Part shown: positions 13,167 to 31,761 of the stretch, one piece after another
Layout of the letters: each line of letters opens with the position of its first letter
Numbering within the stretch: position 1 is the stretch's first letter
Source of the DNA: Thermotogaceae bacterium
GTDB lineage: Bacteria > Thermotogota > Thermotogae > Thermotogales > Thermotogaceae
NCBI GenBank assembly: GCA_026993805.1
Contig: JALWSA010000064.1
Span: forward strand, 29,136-66,438
Length of the DNA stretch: 37,303 nucleotides
Reading direction: 5' to 3'
Notes under the pieces: generated by a model
Told to the model about the DNA's origin: nothing
The model's database searches: none
What the model saw: only the letters and a program-made list of their open reading frames with translations
Made by a program: the position numbers and the translations under genes

Positions 13167-14438
13167 TCATCCCTTAACCGCTCCTTGAAGAACACCGGCT
13201 ATGATTCGCCTCTGGAATATGAGATATACGATGATCACGGGAAGACCTGCTATAGTGGACGCAGCCAGCAAAGAGGGCCAATCTGTGTTCAATTTTTGAT
13301 ACATAGCAAGTCCGAGCTGGACGGTTCTCATTTCTTTTGAAGTCGTGAGTATCAATGGATAGAACAGATCGTTCCAGGCACCTATGAATATGTTTATTCC
13401 CAGAACGGCCAAAGGTGCTTTGCTGAGTGGCATGATTATCCTCCAGAATATCTGCCAGTCGCTTGCTCCGTCCACTCTCGCAGCTTCGTCAAGGGACACG
13501 GGAATCTGCTCGATATATTGTCTCATCAAAAAGACTCCAAAGGGCGTAACCAGCGCCGGAACTATGAGAGCCCAGTAAGTGTCTATCCACCCGAATTTTT
13601 TCATTAAGATAAACACCGGGATTATGGTCGTTTGTGGTGGAATCATCATCATTCCGAGTATCAACGCGAATAGCGTCTCTTTCATGAAGAACTTTTTTCT
13701 CGCAAAGGCGTAACCCACCATGGAAGAGAGTACGAGATTTCCAAGAACGACGGCAAAGGAAATTATCGCACTGTTTAAAAGATATCTACCAAACATGTCG
13801 TACTTCAAAACGTGAACGAAATTGTAGAGAGTTGGAAAACGATTGACAAAATACACATCGTCGATTGATACCTTTACATCTTTAGGCGCCTCGAATATCA
13901 GATAGAGTCTGGAAATCTTTTCCAAATCAATGCTCTCGACTTGGCCTTTTAGATTCTCCGGTATTTCCAGATCCTTAACCGATTTAGGATCGAAGGGAAT
14001 TAAAACCGTCTGCCATCCTTCGGTGGCCTTTATTTCACGCCATCCTTGAAAACCCCTGACTCCATTCATCGCGTCCTTAAAACCGAGTTTAACCTTAACA
14101 TCCACAGGAGTGTTTATCCTCAATCTAATCGCTTTGACGACATACATGTTCTTAGTACCTGTGTTGAAAACCAATCCCTGAGGTTTTTCCCCTGTGAGAC
14201 TCAATACCGCGTACCTGTTTTCACCACTATCTTCAACATCCCATTTAACCCATCCGTATGTCTTTATCTTTATCTTGAGAAGGAACGGGTGTGTTTGGAA
14301 ATTGTTCAAAATGCTCTCTTTCTTCAGGTGAAAGGGATCACCCTGGGGTATAAAGGAAGTGTAGAACATTATTATGAGCGGAGAAAACAGAATAACGAGC
14401 AATATCATCAAAAGTACAAACTTTATTTTTGTCCACAT
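13167..14438 (-). CDS. Sugar ABC transporter permease (MalG type) with an inserted ~155-residue extracytoplasmic domain
   Basis: One of two membrane subunits of a CUT1-type sugar importer. The carboxy half is ordinary: a NSAIISFAVVLGNLVLSS helix, AYAFARKKFF-like loop (GYAFARKKFF), the ATPase-coupling EAA loop EAARVDGASDW (~320), and PLAVLGINIFIGAWNDLFYP. Family members usually have ~270-300 residues, but this one has ~423. The excess lies between the first helix (~6-28) and the second (~220): residues ~45-200 are beta-rich with no helix-like hydrophobic runs and end LYLIFEAPKDVKVSIDDVYF. An IDDVYF strand like this closes many carbohydrate-binding jelly-roll domains. I chose ATG at 14438, seven bases after GGAG and overlapping the upstream stop by one base (TGATG); GTG at 14441 is the alternative. 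Confidence 0.9.
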   Translation of the reverse strand: MWTKIKFVLLMILLVILFSPLIIMFYTSFIPQGDPFHLKKESILNNFQTHPFLLKIKIKTYGWVKWDVEDSGENRYAVLSLTGEKPQGLVFNTGTKNMYVVKAIRLRINTPVDVKVKLGFKDAMNGVRGFQGWREIKATEGWQTVLIPFDPKSVKDLEIPENLKGQVESIDLEKISRLYLIFEAPKDVKVSIDDVYFVNRFPTLYNFVHVLKYDMFGRYLLNSAIISFAVVLGNLVLSSMVGYAFARKKFFMKETLFALILGMMMIPPQTTIIPVFILMKKFGWIDTYWALIVPALVTPFGVFLMRQYIEQIPVSLDEAARVDGASDWQIFWRIIMPLSKAPLAVLGINIFIGAWNDLFYPLILTTSKEMRTVQLGLAMYQKLNTDWPSLLAASTIAGLPVIIVYLIFQRRIIAGVLQGAVKG

Positions 14439-15694
14439 CACACATCACTCCTGAGAAGCCTTTTCTGGATTAGAGTTACAGCCATGATTATTCCAAACAA
14501 AATGTAAGCTATGGCAGATGCGTAACCCATCTCGAACCTTCTGAAACCAACTTGATACAGATAATGAACGATGGTCTCCGTTGAATTCCTCGGACCTCCG
14601 CCTGTCATCGTGAATATCTCGGTGAATATCTGAAAAGACCTTATGGTGTTTATTGCGATTATGAAAAAGAGCGTAGGTTTAAGAAGTGGAAGGGTGATCC
14701 TGAACGTCATCTGAATTCTGTTGGCTCCGTCGATCCTGGCGGCTTCGAAAATATCCTCCGATATGCTACGCAGACCAGCGATGAAAAGCAAAGTGTAGTA
14801 ACCTATGGCACTCCATACATCCATGACCATTATGGATGGGAGGGCCGTTTCGGGTCTCGCAAGAAAACTTATGTTCCTGTAGTTCATTATCACCACTTCA
14901 AGCCACTTGGTCATCAAAACGAGAACCTCAAAGAGTGCTACATTAGCGATTATCAAACCGAACTCTGCCTTGAAGCTCAGTTTCTCCTTGAAAGAGATAG
15001 AAAGTATAAGCCTTATCAGCAACCAAACGACTATTATTCCAAGGATGTAAAACCATGATGAGAATTTCCAAAAATTCACGAAAAATTTAAAAGCATACCA
15101 AAGGGGAACGGACAGGAGATATATAGCTACTCTGTTTCTCTTCGTGTCCACCTCTTGGAAAAAGACGGAATCCATAAGATGCATCAAAAGATACGTTATG
15201 ACGTATATTATGAGCCAAAGGAGAAAACCATGGCTTTTGAAAAACAAAACAGAACTCTGAAGAGGCTCTTTCCATTTCGCCATCAAGATATTGAACGGTC
15301 CATCAGCACTGTAAAGGTAGAGCCATATAAGAGATATTACGACCATGGATACCACTGATGGTAGAAAGAAGCCTGCTTGAAAGAATTCTCGTAGTGGCAA
15401 GAGTTTGTCATTTATCAATATGGCCAATAGCAAAGAGATAGCAGTGGTGAAAGGGATCGTTCCTATCACAAAAACGAAAGTGTTTTTAAGAGCAGTGAGA
15501 AACACCTCATCTTGAAATGCTTTTACGTAATTGTGGAGCCCCACGAATTCCATATGAGGATTCAATCCGCTGTATTTCGAAAGACTCACGATTACCGAAA
15601 AAACCAGCGGATATATGGAAAAAACGGCAAACAGTATTATCCAAGGGGCGAGAAAAGCGAAGGTGGTCAATCTCTCTCTTGTTTTTCTGCTCAA
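14438..15694 (-). CDS. Sugar ABC transporter permease (MalF type) with ~120 extra residues containing about four membrane helices
   Basis: The partner permease of the same importer. Typical parts are an N-terminal helix (FLAPWIILFAVFSIYPLVFS), FVGLHNYVKAFQDEVF, the central ALPSIMVMDVWSAIGYYTLL, the EAA loop EAARIDGANRIQMTFRITLP (~317) and TGGGPRNSTETIVHYLYQ. Relatives have ~290-310 residues; this one has 418. The surplus falls between DGPFN (~132) and ARPETALPS (~280). It contains at least four hydrophobic runs at ~156-174, ~190-210, ~213-233 and ~246-264, separated by charged loops. I chose TTG at 15694, six bases after GGAGGTG. The upstream TTG at 15709 would put that site within the coding region. 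Confidence 0.9.
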   Translation of the reverse strand: MSRKTRERLTTFAFLAPWIILFAVFSIYPLVFSVIVSLSKYSGLNPHMEFVGLHNYVKAFQDEVFLTALKNTFVFVIGTIPFTTAISLLLAILINDKLLPLREFFQAGFFLPSVVSMVVISLIWLYLYSADGPFNILMAKWKEPLQSSVLFFKSHGFLLWLIIYVITYLLMHLMDSVFFQEVDTKRNRVAIYLLSVPLWYAFKFFVNFWKFSSWFYILGIIVVWLLIRLILSISFKEKLSFKAEFGLIIANVALFEVLVLMTKWLEVVIMNYRNISFLARPETALPSIMVMDVWSAIGYYTLLFIAGLRSISEDIFEAARIDGANRIQMTFRITLPLLKPTLFFIIAINTIRSFQIFTEIFTMTGGGPRNSTETIVHYLYQVGFRRFEMGYASAIAYILFGIIMAVTLIQKRLLRSDV

Positions 15695-15722
15695 GTAAAG
15701 CACCTCCAATTACTCTTAATAA

Positions 15723-15766: not shown

Positions 15767-16984
15767 TCACTTTCCGTATTCGTTGAGTACCTGCTGGATT
15801 TTAGCGTTGTATTCGTCGAGCACGCTCTTAACATCGGCCTTGTCGAGGATGATCTTCTCTATAGCCTCGCACAGGAGTCCTTCGATCTTGTCCCATGCCG
15901 GGGTTGGTGGGGTCATCTGGACGTGCTTGTTCTGTTCGAAGAAGATCATGTGCATTGGGTGCTCTTCGAACCAAGGATCGTTGATGGCTTTTGGATCGGA
16001 TGGGTAAACGACTCCGGAGAAAGCCTTGGTTATCTTCATTGCAATATCGGGTTTGAGGAGGAAATAGGCGAGTTTTCTTGCAGCATCTTTGTTCTTGCTC
16101 TGGGTGGTTATTGCCAGAACCTCTCCACCTGCGAAGGAAACAGAGTATGGCTTGTTATCCGGCCTTGGAACGAGAGCAAGATAGTAGTTAAGATCGGGGT
16201 AGGAAGTGTTCAGAGTTCCTATAACCCACTGACCGCCTATGTACATTCCGACCTTTCCTTCTCCGAAAGCCTTTTCTATGTCAGCCTGCTTCGTCATAAG
16301 GGAATATTTGGAAAGCTCCTGATAGAACTTTGCAGCTTCAACGACCTCTGGCGTATTGAAGCAAGCCTTGTCAAGGTTGTCGCCGCAGACTACCCTTCCA
16401 CCGTTGCTCCATACCGCGAGGAGGAACCACTGCTGCCACGGGCTGTAGTGCTCACCGGCCGGGAGTCCGAATCCGTAGATGTCGTCTCCAAGAGCGTTTA
16501 TCTTCTTTGCAGCCTCGAGAACTTCGCTCCAGGTCTTCGGAGGATTGGCTGGATCGAGTCCAGCCTGGATGAAGAGGTCAACGTTGTAGTACATGGCTCT
16601 GGTTCCGACGAGCCAGATGTAACCGTAGTATTTGCCTTTGTAGAACGTGGTGTTGAAGCCAAGGAAGTCCTTGAATCTCGCCTCTTCATCCTTTGTCAAG
16701 GGTTCTACTGCTCCCTGGTCTGCGAATATCGGCACCCAGGTGTTTCCAAGTTCCACCAGATCTGGAGCTGCATTCGCTGCAATAGCTGTGGTTATCTTGT
16801 CGAATCCGTTGGCCCAGGAGAGCTGGGTGAACTCAACCTCGATGTCCGGATACTCTTTCTGGAACTCAGCGTATATGTCCTGCCAGAGCTTGTCATCGAT
16901 CATAAAGGACCAGAACACGAGCTTCGTCTTAGCAAATGCAACGACTACGAGAATTGCCAAAAGCGCCACAAGAACCTTCCTCAT
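15767..16984 (-). CDS. Sugar-binding protein of the ABC importer
   Basis: A 405-residue extracytoplasmic solute-binding protein (SBP_bac_1, MalE-like) that delivers sugar to the two downstream permeases. The signal peptide is MRKVLVALLAILVVVAFA with likely cleavage after AFA. No lipobox cysteine is present, so it should be released or held by other means and not lipid-anchored. The mature protein starts with KTKLVFWSF and has the family hallmark EVEFTQLSWANGFDKITTAI and FGEGKVGMYIGGQWV. The start is fixed by AAGGAGGTG and overlaps the GH3 stop as ATGA. The neighbouring hexosaminidase suggests N-acetylglucosamine oligosaccharides as the ligand; this is inferred from context and from the similar T. 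maritima TM0808-TM0812 order. No ATPase gene is in the operon, so a shared one elsewhere is expected. Confidence 0.93.
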   Translation of the reverse strand: MRKVLVALLAILVVVAFAKTKLVFWSFMIDDKLWQDIYAEFQKEYPDIEVEFTQLSWANGFDKITTAIAANAAPDLVELGNTWVPIFADQGAVEPLTKDEEARFKDFLGFNTTFYKGKYYGYIWLVGTRAMYYNVDLFIQAGLDPANPPKTWSEVLEAAKKINALGDDIYGFGLPAGEHYSPWQQWFLLAVWSNGGRVVCGDNLDKACFNTPEVVEAAKFYQELSKYSLMTKQADIEKAFGEGKVGMYIGGQWVIGTLNTSYPDLNYYLALVPRPDNKPYSVSFAGGEVLAITTQSKNKDAARKLAYFLLKPDIAMKITKAFSGVVYPSDPKAINDPWFEEHPMHMIFFEQNKHVQMTPPTPAWDKIEGLLCEAIEKIILDKADVKSVLDEYNAKIQQVLNEYGK

Positions 16985-18393
16985 GATGCCACCTCCTTAA
17001 AGATAGTTAAAGTTTCATAGAGAGAGATTGGATTCAAGGAATGGGTGACGACGTAATCGTAATCTTTGAAGAAATTTTCATCGTAGGGATCCCTCGCGAT
17101 TATGTAGAAAACACCTTTGGCTTTCTCTCTCAAACTCAGATGCGCTCTCAGAGCTTCCTCGCTTCTGAAAGCGTCCACAACCACATCGAAGACGAAAGAA
17201 TCTATTCCATCAATCTGTGGGCCTTTCCTGATCTCGTACTCCGTGATACCTTCAACTTCAAAAATCTTTGAAAATACTTCTCCAAGCTTCTTGTAGTACT
17301 TGACTGTGGTATCGGCAGGACTGAGGTTTTCCCCTTTTGGAAGGATCACATGTACCTTCTTGGGAAGTCTGGAACTCACCCTGAATTTCAAAGCCTTTCT
17401 GGCAACCTCCGCTACGAATCCTATACCTTCCCGCGTGTAGTACTTCTCTATCGCTCTTTCGACGTTATCAACGGCTCTGTCCACGTGATCTTTTGATATG
17501 GCTCCAGACCTTATCATTTTTTCCAATGTCGTGTAATACTTCTTCAAATCATCAACACTCGTTACGAGAATCATGTCCCCACTGGCTTCGAAAAATCTCT
17601 TTATAATCTCCTCAACAGAGTAATGTGCAGACAAAGCCCTCATATCCACCGCATCGCTTATTATCAATCCTTCAAAACCCAGTTCTTCTCTTAGTATTTC
17701 CTTCAAAAACTTGCGAGATATACTTGCCGGGAGATCGTCTATATCTTCAACTACAAGATGGGCTACCATCACCATCTCCACGCCTTCTTCAATCGCCTTT
17801 ATAAAAGGCATCATGTCGGTGTTCCAGAATTCCCTTTTCGGGACATCGATTATCACTTTGTCGTGATGAGAATCCACCCTTGCTCTACCATGACCGGGGA
17901 AGTGTTTGACACAAGACAGTACTTTCGCATCTTGATAACCCTTGACGGCCGCGATCCCATGTTCAGAAACTACCTTTGGATCCGAACCGAAACTCCTGAA
18001 ACCTATGACAGGAGCAGATGCCTCTGCAAGAACGTCGAGGACCGGAGCGAAAACGGTGTTGAATCCCAGTGCCCTCATTATGTTCCCCGCCATGTTGGCA
18101 TACCTATAGGTTATAGAGGGATCAACGAATCCAAAAGCAAGATTACCAAGGGAGGGTGGTATATAAGGTATCGTCTCCATCTGTCCACCCTCGTGATCCG
18201 AAGAAATCAAATACTCTCCCTCTCTTTCGAGAAAGTGGAAAAATTCAACTGTAGAGACGTAATCATCCAGCACCCCTGGCATCATCAATATTCCGCCAGG
18301 TTTAAATTCCCTAACAGTTTCCATCACAGTCTCGTTGAACTCGTTGAAACCAACGAAGAAAACTCTTCCTATGTCTCCCAACAATCCATTCAC
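16981..18393 (-). CDS. Glycoside hydrolase family 3 beta-N-acetylhexosaminidase (NagZ/CbsA-like)
   Basis: Cleaves terminal beta-N-acetylglucosamine from chitobiose or muropeptide-like substrates. It has the GH3 TIM barrel with substrate-binding SSDHEGG (~64-70), KHFPGHG (163-169), the NagZ-type acid/base dyad in DSHHD (174-178), and the nucleophile Asp247 in ISDAVDMRA. A C-terminal extension of ~130 residues follows the barrel, so it is longer than E. coli NagZ (~340) and closer to two-domain thermophile enzymes. No signal peptide is visible, so it should be cytosolic and act after import by the adjacent transporter. The GTG at 18393 overlaps the ROK stop (GTGA), but the best Shine-Dalgarno match, GGAAGGTGA, sits at better spacing for the TTG codons at residues 4 or 5. 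The true start may thus be 9-12 bases downstream. Confidence 0.92.
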   Translation of the reverse strand: MNGLLGDIGRVFFVGFNEFNETVMETVREFKPGGILMMPGVLDDYVSTVEFFHFLEREGEYLISSDHEGGQMETIPYIPPSLGNLAFGFVDPSITYRYANMAGNIMRALGFNTVFAPVLDVLAEASAPVIGFRSFGSDPKVVSEHGIAAVKGYQDAKVLSCVKHFPGHGRARVDSHHDKVIIDVPKREFWNTDMMPFIKAIEEGVEMVMVAHLVVEDIDDLPASISRKFLKEILREELGFEGLIISDAVDMRALSAHYSVEEIIKRFFEASGDMILVTSVDDLKKYYTTLEKMIRSGAISKDHVDRAVDNVERAIEKYYTREGIGFVAEVARKALKFRVSSRLPKKVHVILPKGENLSPADTTVKYYKKLGEVFSKIFEVEGITEYEIRKGPQIDGIDSFVFDVVVDAFRSEEALRAHLSLREKAKGVFYIIARDPYDENFFKDYDYVVTHSLNPISLYETLTIFKEVAS

Positions 18394-19457
18394 CTTCCCT
18401 TGAGAATCTCGATGGCGAAGTCGTAGTTGTTGAAGAAACAGTTCAAGAAAGCCTTTGCAACACCGATGGCGACAGTTTCCAACCCTTCCTCATCTATGAT
18501 GATCTCCGTGAAAGAGCGCGGTTTTTCCATCAAACCTTTTTCCAATTCTGATCTGAGATAGTCGTGCACTTCCCTTGGAAGAAGGTTTACATCTCCTCCT
18601 ATAACGACCCCATCGGGATCGAGCATGTAAATCGTATCTTCTATGAGCTCAACCAACCTCTTCAAAAATTCCTTTATGTCCTCCAACCTCAAAGAATCGT
18701 ATTTTTTCAATTCCTTCAGGGTCCTCACCTTATCCGTTTCGCTCACGAGCGGTGGCAACGCCCCTACTCTGAACTCTCCTGCCGACATAGAAGAGCCTAA
18801 ATAACTCTTGCCTTCAAGCCAAAGACCTACTCCCATTCCAACCGACCTATCCAAGTTGTACGGTATAGATATCAAAAAGTACTCGAGGTTTCTCCATCGA
18901 TGGGAAAAAGCCGCAGCTGCCGCATTCGCGTCGTTCATTAAAAAGAAATCCTTGCCGGTCCTCTCTCTCAATCTCTCTTTGAGGTCGTAATCCCTCAATT
19001 CAAATGCAGCGCTGTAGATTATCACTCCAAGATCTACATCCATTATTCCAGGCATTGCCACACCGATACCGAGCAACTCCTCATCATTTCCATACTCTTT
19101 GGAAAGCTTCGCTATCACATCTACGATTTCATCCTTCCTTATCTCCCTAACCCAATGTCCTTTCTCAATGACTTCACCACGGAGGTTCAGCTTCGCCACC
19201 GCAACCTCACTCTGCTCAAGTCCTATCCCCAAAACGGCATACTTTCCAGGATTGAGACCATAAACTTTGGCTTTCCTCCCACCGTAAGGTCCCGCATCCA
19301 ATTCACCCGTTACGACCACAAATTCTTCCTTAACGAGATTTCTCAGATTTCTGGAAATCGTAGAAGCGTCGACTTTGAGACCTTTTCCTATTTCCTTCGC
19401 CGGTGAGTCTCCGTTGTTCCATAGAAAACGTATCATCTTGTGCTGAGTCAGATTCAC
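18390..19457 (-). CDS. ROK-family transcriptional regulator of the sugar operon
   Basis: A winged-helix DNA-binding domain (~1-65; NLTQHKMIRFLWNNGDSPAK, then DASTISRNLRNLVKEEFV) is joined to a sugar-kinase-like ROK fold. The ROK part keeps the ATP-fold start (YAVLGIGLEQSEVAVAKLNL), GIGVAMPGIMDVD and NDANAAAAA. It lacks the zinc-binding CxCGxxGCxE segment and the GH motif, with SSMSAGEFRVGA in place of the usual AGExGH region, so it is probably a pure sensor and not a kinase. I chose GTG at 19457, after GGGGGGA at five bases; ATG at 19472 has no ribosome binding site. It leads the operon and its stop overlaps the GH3 start, so it likely controls its own transcript. The inducer would be N-acetylglucosamine or chitobiose, inferred from neighbours. 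Confidence 0.9.
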   Translation of the reverse strand: MNLTQHKMIRFLWNNGDSPAKEIGKGLKVDASTISRNLRNLVKEEFVVVTGELDAGPYGGRKAKVYGLNPGKYAVLGIGLEQSEVAVAKLNLRGEVIEKGHWVREIRKDEIVDVIAKLSKEYGNDEELLGIGVAMPGIMDVDLGVIIYSAAFELRDYDLKERLRERTGKDFFLMNDANAAAAAFSHRWRNLEYFLISIPYNLDRSVGMGVGLWLEGKSYLGSSMSAGEFRVGALPPLVSETDKVRTLKELKKYDSLRLEDIKEFLKRLVELIEDTIYMLDPDGVVIGGDVNLLPREVHDYLRSELEKGLMEKPRSFTEIIIDEEGLETVAIGVAKAFLNCFFNNYDFAIEILKGR

Positions 19458-19477
19458 GGCAATTCCCCCCATGGTTG

Positions 19478-19496
19478 GTTGCATGCATCACGCAAC
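19478..19496. promoter_or_regulatory. Possible operator: inverted repeat upstream of the ROK gene
   Basis: GTTGC (19478-19482) and GCAAC (19492-19496) form an inverted repeat with the palindrome TGCATGCA (19480-19487) inside. It is 20-40 bases upstream of the chosen ROK start, where a repressor could act. No copy elsewhere in the window was found by eye. Confidence 0.3.
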
Positions 19497-26670: not shown

Positions 26671-29600
26671 ATGCCGGTAGGTACTTTCAAGAGGAGGATA
26701 GCCTCTGTAAAAATAGGTATCGCATCTCCAGAAACCATAAGAAGCTGGTCTTCCGGTGAGGTCAAAAAACCGGAAACCATCAACTACAGGACTTTTAAAC
26801 CTGAAAGAGACGGGCTTTTCTGTGAAAGGATATTCGGGCCTGTCAAGGACTACGAGTGTGCTTGCGGAAAGTACAAGGGGAAGAAGTACGAAGGTGTCGT
26901 TTGTGAAAGGTGTGGAGTCAGAGTCGAATCGAGAGAAGCGAGAAGAAAGAGAATGGGGCACATAGAATTAGCAGCTCCCGTCGTACACATATGGTACTTA
27001 GAAGGAATCCCGAGCGTTCTCTCCACACTCTTGAACATGCCGCTTTCCGACCTCGAAAACATCGTCTATTATGGCTCAAAGAGAGTTATAGAAAGGGTAT
27101 TCATCGTAGTCGATCCCAAAAACAGCCCCTTTGCAAAAGGAGACATATTCTACGAGAGTGAATATCTGATCTACAGCAAAAAATGGGATATCGGCGTTGA
27201 ACAGGCTTTCATTATTCGAAATCCGAAATCCCCCGTGGTATCGGATATAGACGGCGTAGTTTCTGTAAAGACCGAAACCACTTCAGCAGGCAGAGAGATA
27301 ACATGGATAACCGTTAGAAACGTAAGCAGAAGAGAAGTAAAACTGCACCCTGGGATGATTCTGCAGGTGAAGGAAGGTCAGGAAGTCTCAGAAGGAGACG
27401 TCTTGGTACCCGAAATGGAGGTTGAACCCATCTACGCGCCTTTCGATGGAAAGGTCGAAATAGACGATCTCACGGGAACGATAACCGTAAAACCCCCAAA
27501 AACCAGTAAAGAGTCACCCGTCGTATTCAACATACCTTACAACGCCAAGGTGCTCGTTAAAAATGGTGGCAAGGTCAAGGCGGGCGATCAGCTCACCACA
27601 CATACTGTCATGAGCGCCATTACAGCCCCCACGGCCGGAAAAATCGCTTTTGGGAAGGACTTGAACCTCAGACCTCTCGAAGATGGAAACTACGAAGTCC
27701 TCACCGATGGAACACTTTACATAGAGAACGTTATAGAAGAAAAGAGATATCCCGTATTTGAAGGAGCTTTCGTGTATGTGAATGACGGAGATGAGGTGAA
27801 GTCCGGCGATCAGCTTGCGGATAGGTTTCTCTTCGAAGACGAATACCTCTCTTCATCCGAGCTTCGCGTCTTCGAGGAATACTACCCGACACTTTTCGAA
27901 TACGAGGAAAAAACGGCAAACGACAGAGCTGTTGTAATGATAACCTCCATAGACGAAGAAGCATCCAAGGAAACCAACCTGAAGGTTGGAGACATAATTA
28001 CCATGGCAGAGTTCGAGGCTTACAACACCATATATCCCGGAAAAATAGAAGCAGATCAGGGTGCGAGCGCTATAAAGAAACTCCTCCAAAATCTCGACCT
28101 TGAAAAATTAAGAGCAGAGCTCGAAGGGGAACTCAAGAAACTTCCGAAAAACAGTTCCAAAGCTCTGAAGATAAGAAAGAGACTGAAAATAGTCAAGGAT
28201 TTCATAAAGAGCGGGAACAAACCTGAATGGATCGTACTTGAAGTGATACCCGTTATACCACCTGACCTGAGGCCAATGATCCAGATAGAGGGTGGAAGGT
28301 TTGCAACAACGGACCTTAATGAACTCTACAGAAGGGTTATCAACAGAAACAACAGGCTCCGCCGTCTCATGGACATGGGATCACCCGAGATCATTCTCAG
28401 AAACGAGAAGAGGATGCTGCAGGAAGCCGTCGACAACCTCATATACAACAGGGCTGATTCCGAAGGAGGAAGATCGAGGAGAACGGCGGTAAGGGATAGA
28501 AACGGAAGACCTCTCAAATCTCTCACGGACCTTCTGAAGGGTAAGAAAGGTAGGTTCAGAAGAAACCTTCTTGGAAAGAGAGTTGATTACTCCGGAAGAG
28601 CCGTTATAGTCGTCGGACCCGAGCTCAAGATACACCAGTGCGGTATTCCAAAGAAGATGGCGATGGAGCTCTTCAAGCCATTCGTTCTCGCCCGCCTCTT
28701 GGGTGAGGGAGACAGCTCCAAGGCCATAAGAAAGATGAAGAAAGCGATAATAGAAAAGGAAATGCCAGAAGCTTGGGAAGTTCTGGAAGAAGTCATAAAA
28801 GGGAAGGTCGTGCTTCTCAACAGGGCTCCAACCCTGCACAGGATGTCCATCCAGGCGTTCGAACCGAAGCTCGTTGAAGGTAACGCTATCAGGCTCCATC
28901 CCGTCGTGTGTCCTCCATTCAACGCGGACTTTGACGGTGACCAGATGGCAGTCCACGTGCCACTATCCTTTGCAGCGCAGGCAGAATCACGTCTCCTCAT
29001 GCTCTCGAGGTACAACATAATATCGCCGGCACACGGAAGACCCATTTCCCTGCCAACACAGGACATCATAATAGGTGTTTACTACCTTACGAGCGTCGAT
29101 GAAAGGTTCGAGAAAACGCCCCAAGATAAGATCAAATGGAAGTTCTCGTCCCCGAACGAGGCAATGCTCGCGTACTTCTTCGGTTATATAGATCTACATG
29201 AGCCGATAATAATAAAACTCAGCGGAAAGAGAATTAAAACCACCCTTGGTAGGGTGATATTCAACGAGATCCTTCCGTACGACCTCAGGGATTACAACAA
29301 GGTCTTCGGAAAGAAACAGATAAACCAGCTCGTTTACGAGACGTTCAAGAGACATGGTATTGACGCGGCAGCCGACCTCCTGGACGCTATAAAAGACCTC
29401 GGATTCCATTACGCAACTGTCTCCGGTCTGACCTTCTCTCTGAAAGACTTGATAAACGATCCTGAAAGAGAAAGACTCCTTCAGGAAGCTTGGAACAAAG
29501 TTGAAACCGTAGAAAACTACCACAGAATGGGATTCCTCACGGATGACCAGAGAAAGAGCGAAATAATAAGGATCTGGAGAGATACCACGGACAAGATAAG

Positions 29601-31761
29601 AGATCTGACATACGAAGTCTTGAGTCGCAATCCGTTCAACCCGATATTCATGATGGTCAACTCCGGTGCAAGGGGTAACATAGATCAGGTCAAACAGCTC
29701 GCAGGTATCAGAGGATTGATGATCAAGGCTTATGACCCCAGATCCAGAGAAATAAAATCCAGGATATTCAGGGGGCAATCGGTTTATGAGGCTCTGACCT
29801 TCGAATACCCCGTGGACAGAAACCTCAGAGAAGGCGTCAACATACTGCAGTTCTTCATTTCGACATACGGGGCAAGAAAAGGTCAAGTCGATACGGCTAT
29901 GAATACATCCTTTGCCGGTTATCTGACAAGAAGACTCGTTGATGTGGCTCAATCCGTTACCGTTACAACCCCAGACTGCGGAACCCACGAGGGAATACGA
30001 GCTCTTGAACTGATTAAAGACGGAACAACGATTGAAAAACTGGATGGCTTCCTATTCGGAAGAGTCCTGGCAAGAGACGTACTCGATCCCGAGACGAAGG
30101 AAGTTGTTAAGAACCCAGAAAACGGAAAAGAATACACGAGAAACACTATGCTAAAAGACGACGACGCCAAGTTCCTCGCCGAATACAGAAAGAATGTGCC
30201 CGTCTCCTACACGATGGATTGGGATATAAGCGGAGAACTGGCACTCCCGAAACACTACGCAGTTCTCGCAGAAGAAATCGAGAAAGAAACCGAGGGAGAA
30301 TTCTTCGAAATCGGTGAAGAGGTAACCTGGGATGTCGTAAAGGCAGCACGAGCCGCTGGAAAGTCCTCCATAAAGATAAAGGTATACCCGATTGTGGGCG
30401 CAGTTTATGCCAACAAACAGCCTCTGTGGGATAAGAAACACCAGCGTCAGCTTCTCGTCTACCAAGAACTCATAAGTCCGGAAGCGGCAAAGCTCGTCGA
30501 AGAGGACGGAATAAAAGAAGTTGCGGTGAGACCCGAGATAATCGTGCGTTCTCCTTTGACATGTGAGGCAGAACACGGTGTGTGTGCGGCTTGTTACGGT
30601 ATGGATCTTTCCAACCACAAGATAGTCAATGTCGGTGAATCGGTCGGAATAGTCGCTGCCCAGTCCATAGGAGAACCCGGAACACAGCTGACGATGAGAA
30701 CATTCCACGTCGGTGGAGTCATGGGTGCAAGCGACATCGTCAGCGGTTTGACAACGGTTGAAAAGACATTCGAACCCTATGCATTCCTCAGGGACGAAAA
30801 GAGCTCTTCTAAGAAGGGAATAAAGAAGTACTACGGATCCGAAGCGATACTTTCGGAAGTCGAAGGATTCGTTAAGGATATAAAAGAGGACGAAAAGGGA
30901 AGAACCGTTATATACGTCGAAGACTACGATGGAAACATATACGCATATGAATTGCCAAAGAAAGGAAGACCTAAGGTTGAGATTGGACAGAAGGTATTCG
31001 TTGGAGATCAGCTCAGCACCGGTGCAATTGTATGGTGGAAGCTTCTCGCTCTCGAAGGAGAAAAAGGCGTGCTAACGGCAATGAATCTTCTGAAGATCAT
31101 AAAGAACGCTTACTTCCAGCAGGGAGTCGATATCCACGACAAGCACTTTGAAATCATCTTCAGGCAGATGCTCTCTATGGCGGAAGTTGTGGATCCAGGA
31201 GACACTGACTATCTGCCAGAGCAACTGGTGCCTCTTGTAGATCTAAAGAGAGTCAATCGGGAGATACTCACTGGAAACTCTCAAGTAGACGACAACAGAA
31301 AGAGAATCATAGGGAAACAGCTTGCAGAAAAAGTCATGTATGAGGAAGACAACGAGGTCAAGACTCTTGCGGAAGAAGGAGAAGAAGTCACAGAAGAACT
31401 GCTGGAAAAGATGATAAAAGCTGGCATAAAGGATGTGAAGATCAAAGTCAATACAGCTCTCGGAGACGAAATAGAAGTCCTGCAGATAGCTCCAAAGGAA
31501 CCCGTGAGATACAAGAGAAGACTGCTCTCATTGAAAAAAGCTGCTCTTAACTACACAGGATGGCTGTCCGCTGCAGCGTTCGAGGAAACGGCGTGGGTGC
31601 TTACCGCAGCCGCAGTTGAAGGAAAGGTCGATATACTCAAGGGACTCAAAGAGAACGTCATCGTTGGACAGCTCATTCCCGCTGGTACAGGGCTCGATGC
31701 TTTCACAAACATACAGATCGTGGAAACACCGAGGGAAGCGGAGAAAGAAGAATTGGCATAA
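26671..31761 (+). CDS. rpoC: RNA polymerase beta' subunit
   Basis: The 1696-residue beta' subunit. The N-terminal zinc site uses Cys63, Cys65, Cys78 and Cys81. The catalytic Mg loop NADFDGDQM is at 751-759. A second zinc site includes [13 protein letters not shown] at ~1298-1310, and the trigger-loop region has TMRTFHVGG. Between the zinc finger and the dock region, residues ~150-440 hold an insertion of repeated barrel-sandwich units with V-x-x-G-D-x-L motifs ([39 protein letters not shown]), as known from Thermotoga and Thermus. The C-terminus ends in [16 protein letters not shown] and [13 protein letters not shown]. The start follows GAGGAGGGA. It is co-transcribed with rpoB and ends at a strong terminator. 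Confidence 0.98.

Follow-up and report, generated by a model that had tools for sequence, protein, structure and literature searches.

A Thermotogaceae sugar importer with an old, predicted carbohydrate-binding-module-like domain in MalG and a younger, predicted four-helix insert in MalF

Large domains after the first helix of MalG-type permeases are already known in the Thermotogota, because the MalG1 and MalG2 proteins of the Thermotogales were reported to carry a hydrophilic region of ~500 residues between helices 1 and 2, for which no function was known in 2008 (PMC2246101). The MalG protein described here, encoded in a 37,303-nucleotide stretch of DNA from a heat-loving Thermotogaceae bacterium (the window), resembles MalG1 and MalG2 in subunit type, in phylum, and in having an extracytoplasmic insertion after helix 1. 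It differs in that their insert is about three times longer and in that they fall outside the subfamily with the carbohydrate-binding-module (CBM)-like insert on the MalG tree. BLAST ranges suggested that the ~500-residue loops might be homologous to this insert, but the profile test failed, an HMM of the CBM-like insert giving no significant match to twelve such loops. The CBM-like inserts thus appear as a class distinct in sequence from the MalG1/MalG2 loops. The window's own genome also encodes two long MalG permeases of 750 and 781 amino acids, with ~540-residue loops after helix 1 (L070:1908-4160 and L071:3784-6129, both on the minus strand); no MalF or binding-protein gene was recognized adjoining either gene in the stretches read.

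A folded extracytoplasmic domain beside the binding protein is also present in a CUT1 permease of Escherichia coli, where contact of the P2 domain of MalF with MalE persists through the cycle (Daus 2009, as cited in PMC3150292). The likeness to the MalG domain of the window is one of analogy: MalF-P2 is a different domain of ~180 residues, it sits in MalF and not in MalG, and its contact with MalE has been shown, according to that citing account, whereas the corresponding contact in the window is one that we infer. MalF-P2 also differs from the insert in the window's MalF, in that P2 is hydrophilic and joins helix 3 to helix 4 of a protein with eight helices (core helices 1 and 2), whereas the insert is predicted to be membrane embedded and separates core helix 3 from core helix 4. 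Among solved permeases, SugB, AlgM2, and E. coli MalG share the core fold and the EAA motif with the window's MalG but have no comparable domain after helix 1, and SugA and AlgM1 share the core of its MalF (TMt ~0.8) but lack a four-helix block at the corresponding place. The CBM11 of Lic26A-Cel5E (1v0a, 6r31) and a CBM30 (1wzx) resemble the MalG insert in beta-sandwich topology and in sequence profile; they are modules of glycosidases, whereas the insert lies inside a permease. A limited search of the open literature gave no description of a CBM-like domain in MalG or of a helix block in MalF. The four-helix module of MalF is the more novel part and matches nothing known.

The importer and its gene cluster

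The malF and malG ORFs are both intact and lie downstream of genes for a solute-binding protein, a GH3 enzyme, and a ROK-family regulator (Table 1). Thermotogaceae, Pseudothermotoga, Fervidobacterium, and Marinitoga are the named relatives of this Thermotogota genome. The MalG product matched PF00528 (E = 2.2e-21, residues 241 to 414). MalF had no Pfam match at E ≤ 0.001, probably because its insert splits the domain; NCBIfam UgpA/GlcT models matched it in two pieces flanking the insert (UgpA, 1.9e-29). The EAA motif of the coupling helix can be read directly in both permeases, as EAARVDGA in MalG and EAARIDGA in MalF. By sequence, these two permeases with BPD_transp_1/MalF-MalG similarity and EAA motifs, together with a family 1 solute-binding protein, make up a CUT1-type sugar ABC importer.

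A sequence-only reading of the window had called attention to large extra segments in both permeases, and their place and extent were borne out. MalG has 424 residues, compared with about 270 to 285 in MalG-type proteins that lack the insert; ~160 of its residues are extra, compared with the ~155 first proposed. MalF has 423 residues, compared with 288 to 321 in the orthologous MalF proteins of other Thermotogota, which lack the segment in an alignment; its extra length is nearer 127 to 130 residues than the ~120 first proposed.

The GH3 enzyme matched the solved beta-N-acetylglucosaminidase 3wo8 at E = 1e-134 and contains 'KHFPGHGRARVDSHHD', which we take to be the GH3 NagZ dyad site. The ROK regulator is 38% identical to the regulator of a Thermotoga-like nag-type cluster, and the arrangement ROK-(GH3)-SBP-MalF-MalG (SBP, solute-binding protein) is conserved widely among relatives. 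Because of this conserved cluster and the closeness of the GH3 enzyme to 3wo8, the substrate is probably a set of N-acetylglucosamine-containing oligosaccharides. The nearest solved relatives of the solute-binding protein are 5ysb (Lin1841) and 5ci5. No cognate ATPase gene was found among the five cluster genes tested, and the mal operons of T. maritima are likewise without one (PMC2246101). In another genome of the same family (G090), which has clear counterparts of the ROK regulator (38%) and the GH3 enzyme (46%), a different, insert-free set of solute-binding protein and permeases lies directly behind these two genes (L170:3310-8807), and the transporter at that locus has apparently been swapped in place. 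Elsewhere in the window, the beta' subunit of RNA polymerase (26671-31761, plus strand, 1696 amino acids) has an N-terminal insertion with weak matches to the barrel-sandwich hybrid.

Table 1. Features of the importer locus, in window coordinates
Feature	Coordinates	Strand	Description
malG	13167..14441	minus	ORF; MalG-type permease subunit, 424 aa, GTG start, EAA motif 'EAARVDGASDWQIFWRIIMP'
MalG extracytoplasmic insert	13842..14330	minus	residues ~38-200, ~160 extra residues, between helices 1 and 2; predicted CBM11/CBM30-like beta-sandwich
malF	14438..15709	minus	ORF; MalF-type permease subunit, 423 aa; overlaps malG by 4 bases
MalF insert	14894..15274	minus	residues ~146-272, ~127-130 extra; four predicted TM helices between core helices 3 and 4
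FKE[KR]L motif	14978..14992	minus	second connecting loop of MalF insert, predicted cytoplasmic; invariant except K/R
DTK[KR]NR motif	15131..15148	minus	first connecting loop of MalF insert, predicted cytoplasmic; invariant except K/R in 4/4 complete insert-bearing proteins
Solute-binding protein of importer	15767..16984	minus	PF01547, E = 2e-43
GH3 beta-N-acetylglucosaminidase	16981..18393	minus	PF00933 and NagA_C
ROK-family (NagC-type) regulator	18390..19484	minus	PF00480 and MarR HTH; NagC match

The extracytoplasmic domain of MalG

The AlphaFold2 model of the MalG insert is an all-beta domain in which most ten-residue blocks have a pLDDT of 80 to 93. With Foldseek, its best non-permease matches in the PDB were CBM11 modules (1v0a, E = 1.7e-7, TMt 0.64); 7zkq, a complex I assembly intermediate (CIA30), and CBM30 ranked below them. 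A viral-library Foldseek search returned tail-fibre and CenC-type sandwiches, which were no better than CBM11. Independently of the structure, a profile made from the insert sequences matched CBM11 at E = 3.3e-5. When the inserts of relatives were searched against Pfam, CBM30 was matched by 10 of 32 and CBM11 by 3 of 32, and the CIA30 model also matched some; a profile of the Omnitrophota inserts matched CBM30. We label the insert CBM11/CBM30-like and not a member of either family because the window insert alone matched no Pfam family at E ≤ 1, such matches coming from relatives and profiles only. The beta-rich, CBM-type jelly roll that had been suspected after helix 1 is consistent with the model, the Foldseek matches, and the profile, and we predict that the insert is an extracytoplasmic beta-sandwich of carbohydrate-binding-module type.

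MalG orthologs of about 390 to 422 residues with the same insert occur in five Thermotogota families (f1, f2, f3, f7, and f10), and the insert recurs in about 30 genomes. In a tree of the MalG core, the insert-bearing proteins of the Thermotogota form one clade with a support of 100; the "none" labels inside this clade are truncated or frame-broken ORFs. The MalG proteins of Omnitrophota have a segment at the same place that is homologous to the Thermotogota insert (hhalign 98.3%, E 1.4e-14). Nearby lineages on the tree (Zixiibacteriota, Ignavibacteriota, and two Deltaproteobacteria) have MalG without the insert, a pattern that could have arisen by a single ancient gain followed by losses, by two separate gains, or by transfer. 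Alignment with relatives therefore divides the earlier claim that ordinary permeases lack both segments: it holds for MalF, in which the longer form is not the standard length, and it fails for MalG, in which the insert is ancient and belongs to the standard form of the subfamily, both in the five Thermotogota families and in Omnitrophota.

Loss of the insert from the MalG copies of Marinitoga lauensis (G041) was ruled out, since the frame-broken copies still hold the segment, and the short ORF of G098 reads only part of this same gene. The M. lauensis genome has four copies of the transporter locus (L074-L077), three of them with broken frames; these may be duplicates in decay or may reflect misassembly at the ends of unitigs. 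Fusions of the solute-binding protein to the N terminus of MalF, in ORFs of 684 to 828 residues, were seen in Omnitrophota (L111-L117, L119-L122, and L142) and in Deltaproteobacteria (L144 and L151). The Omnitrophota fusions are paired with a MalG carrying the CBM-like insert (some of them shortened), and the two deltaproteobacterial fusions are paired with an insert-free MalG.

The four-helix insert of MalF

The MalF insert lies between the sequences DGPFN and SFLARPETAL. Hydropathy gave four hydrophobic runs within it (residues 161-179, 194-212, 222-240, and 248-266), and these coincide with the four helices of the AlphaFold2 model (161-183, 190-213, 220-239, and 246-275), whose blocks have a pLDDT of mostly 82 to 90. 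The loops joining helices 1 and 2 and helices 3 and 4 contain three or four K/R residues each in all four complete proteins, compared with none or one in the middle loop, and because these two loops are K/R-rich, the positive-inside rule places them in the cytoplasm. Such a placement agrees with a block that starts and ends outside, and it leaves almost no periplasmic mass. Hydropathy, modeled helices, and loop charge all favor the suggestion that the hydrophobic runs are membrane helices, and we predict two transmembrane hairpins, confined to one clade and much younger than the MalG domain, which bring the helices of MalF to ten. The model rests on four complete sequences, from the window genome and three g5 genomes; the MalF of G087 (g2) has the first ~20 residues of the insert and then meets a contig edge. 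Among the 38 genera searched, the insert was seen only in g1, g2, and g5, all of which belong to the family of the window genome.

Foldseek against the PDB returned no solved structure matching the insert, and we found no convincing relative in Pfam, in PDB profiles, or in the genomes of the phylum. A PDB profile match to PCNA at 0.0085 covered only 24 residues. BLAST extensions hinted at an internal duplication of core helices, but profile comparison found nothing. A search of 103 Thermotogota genomes for a donor gene for the four helices gave only weak matches; the one checked reads as FeoB, and it was taken to reflect membrane composition.

Relative age and possible roles of the two inserts

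The two inserts evolve at a similar rate and faster than the cores: each is 35 to 37% identical between genera, and the cores are 79 to 90% identical. In both inserts, the nonsynonymous difference is far below the saturated synonymous difference, implying that both are maintained as protein sequence, and chance or an assembly artefact is excluded because both recur in other genomes. Dozens of species combine the MalG domain with a MalF that lacks extra helices, and the distribution of the sequences indicates that the two inserts were not one event, the younger MalF change having arisen within a clade whose MalG was already extended by the older domain. It had been proposed that the two changes together rebuild the translocation pathway, with the MalF helices holding the outside domain, and the window genome and the g5 genomes do have both inserts in one complex. 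We now regard this as very improbable: the inserts arose at different times, most Thermotogota have the MalG insert without the MalF insert, Omnitrophota have the MalG insert and show no similarity to the MalF insert by BLAST, and the MalF insert combines little periplasmic mass with invariant polar motifs in loops that are predicted to be cytoplasmic.

The explanation that we prefer for the whole, to which we give a little less than even confidence, is that an ancient CBM11/CBM30-like domain in MalG seats the solute-binding protein and that a young, peripheral hairpin module in MalF makes cytoplasmic contacts. The MalG domain would stand beside the mouth of the pathway and would help to seat or retain the binding protein, rather than being a strong sugar binder; it would act like E. 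coli MalF-P2 grafted onto the other subunit, and it is by this analogy that we favor docking or positioning of the binding protein. The main objection to docking comes from the Omnitrophota, many of which have the binding protein fused to MalF yet keep the MalG domain, so that recruitment as such is unnecessary there. Furthermore, one would expect a docking face to be better conserved than the 35 to 37% seen between genera, unless the partner has covaried. The retention of the domain beside fused binding proteins is instead what might be expected of a working carbohydrate-binding module, which would bind oligosaccharides weakly near the pore and so raise the local substrate concentration or hand chain ends to the binding protein. 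The CBM11/CBM30/CBM4-like fold and profile, the closeness of the Omnitrophota versions to CBM30, and the position of the domain outside the cell, adjoining a sugar importer, also point in this direction. However, the CBM11 loop RRLDYQPPGQ, which we take to hold the ligand contacts Arg126, Asp128, and Tyr129 of CtCBM11, lies opposite a gap in the MalG profile and has no counterpart in the profile alignment. Because this canonical sugar-binding loop appears to be missing, CBM11-type sugar binding is doubtful, the balance being slightly against it. The best-conserved positions of the insert, namely, an early F (DF), the D in D.RK, a W, and a DD near the end, look like a structural framework, and CIA30, which has the same fold, is not known as a sugar binder. 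A working module seems to us a serious but unlikely account of the domain.

Under the preferred explanation, the MalF hairpins would form a peripheral membrane module that is not required for the MalG domain to work, and their conserved basic loops would lie on the cytoplasmic side and touch the ATPase or some other partner there. Since the conserved parts are predicted to face the cytoplasm, we consider such a partner likelier than an interaction with the outside domain; the lack of an ATPase gene in the cluster counts against it. The more specific proposal that the insert is a new kind of in-permease module, docking a cytoplasmic partner or regulator via DTK[KR]NR and FKE[KR]L on a transporter with a CBM-type domain, strikes us as decidedly doubtful. 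We rate somewhat higher, but still as improbable, a neutral accretion in which a pair of hairpins was inserted once, was tolerated at the lipid-facing rim, and has been kept only for folding. Such an origin would fit the fast divergence of the insert (35 to 37% identity, compared with 79 to 83% for the core), its restriction to a single clade, and its similarity to no family; it fits poorly with the two invariant loop motifs, with nonsynonymous change well below synonymous change, and with an insert length that is nearly constant across two genera.

Taken together, these results give a predicted CBM11/CBM30-like fold to one class of the unexplained domains that follow helix 1 in Thermotogota MalG proteins, a class that is also present in the Omnitrophota, many of which fuse the solute-binding protein to MalF. 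The young four-helix insertion in MalF could serve to ask how one half of an importer tolerates, or uses, added membrane helices.
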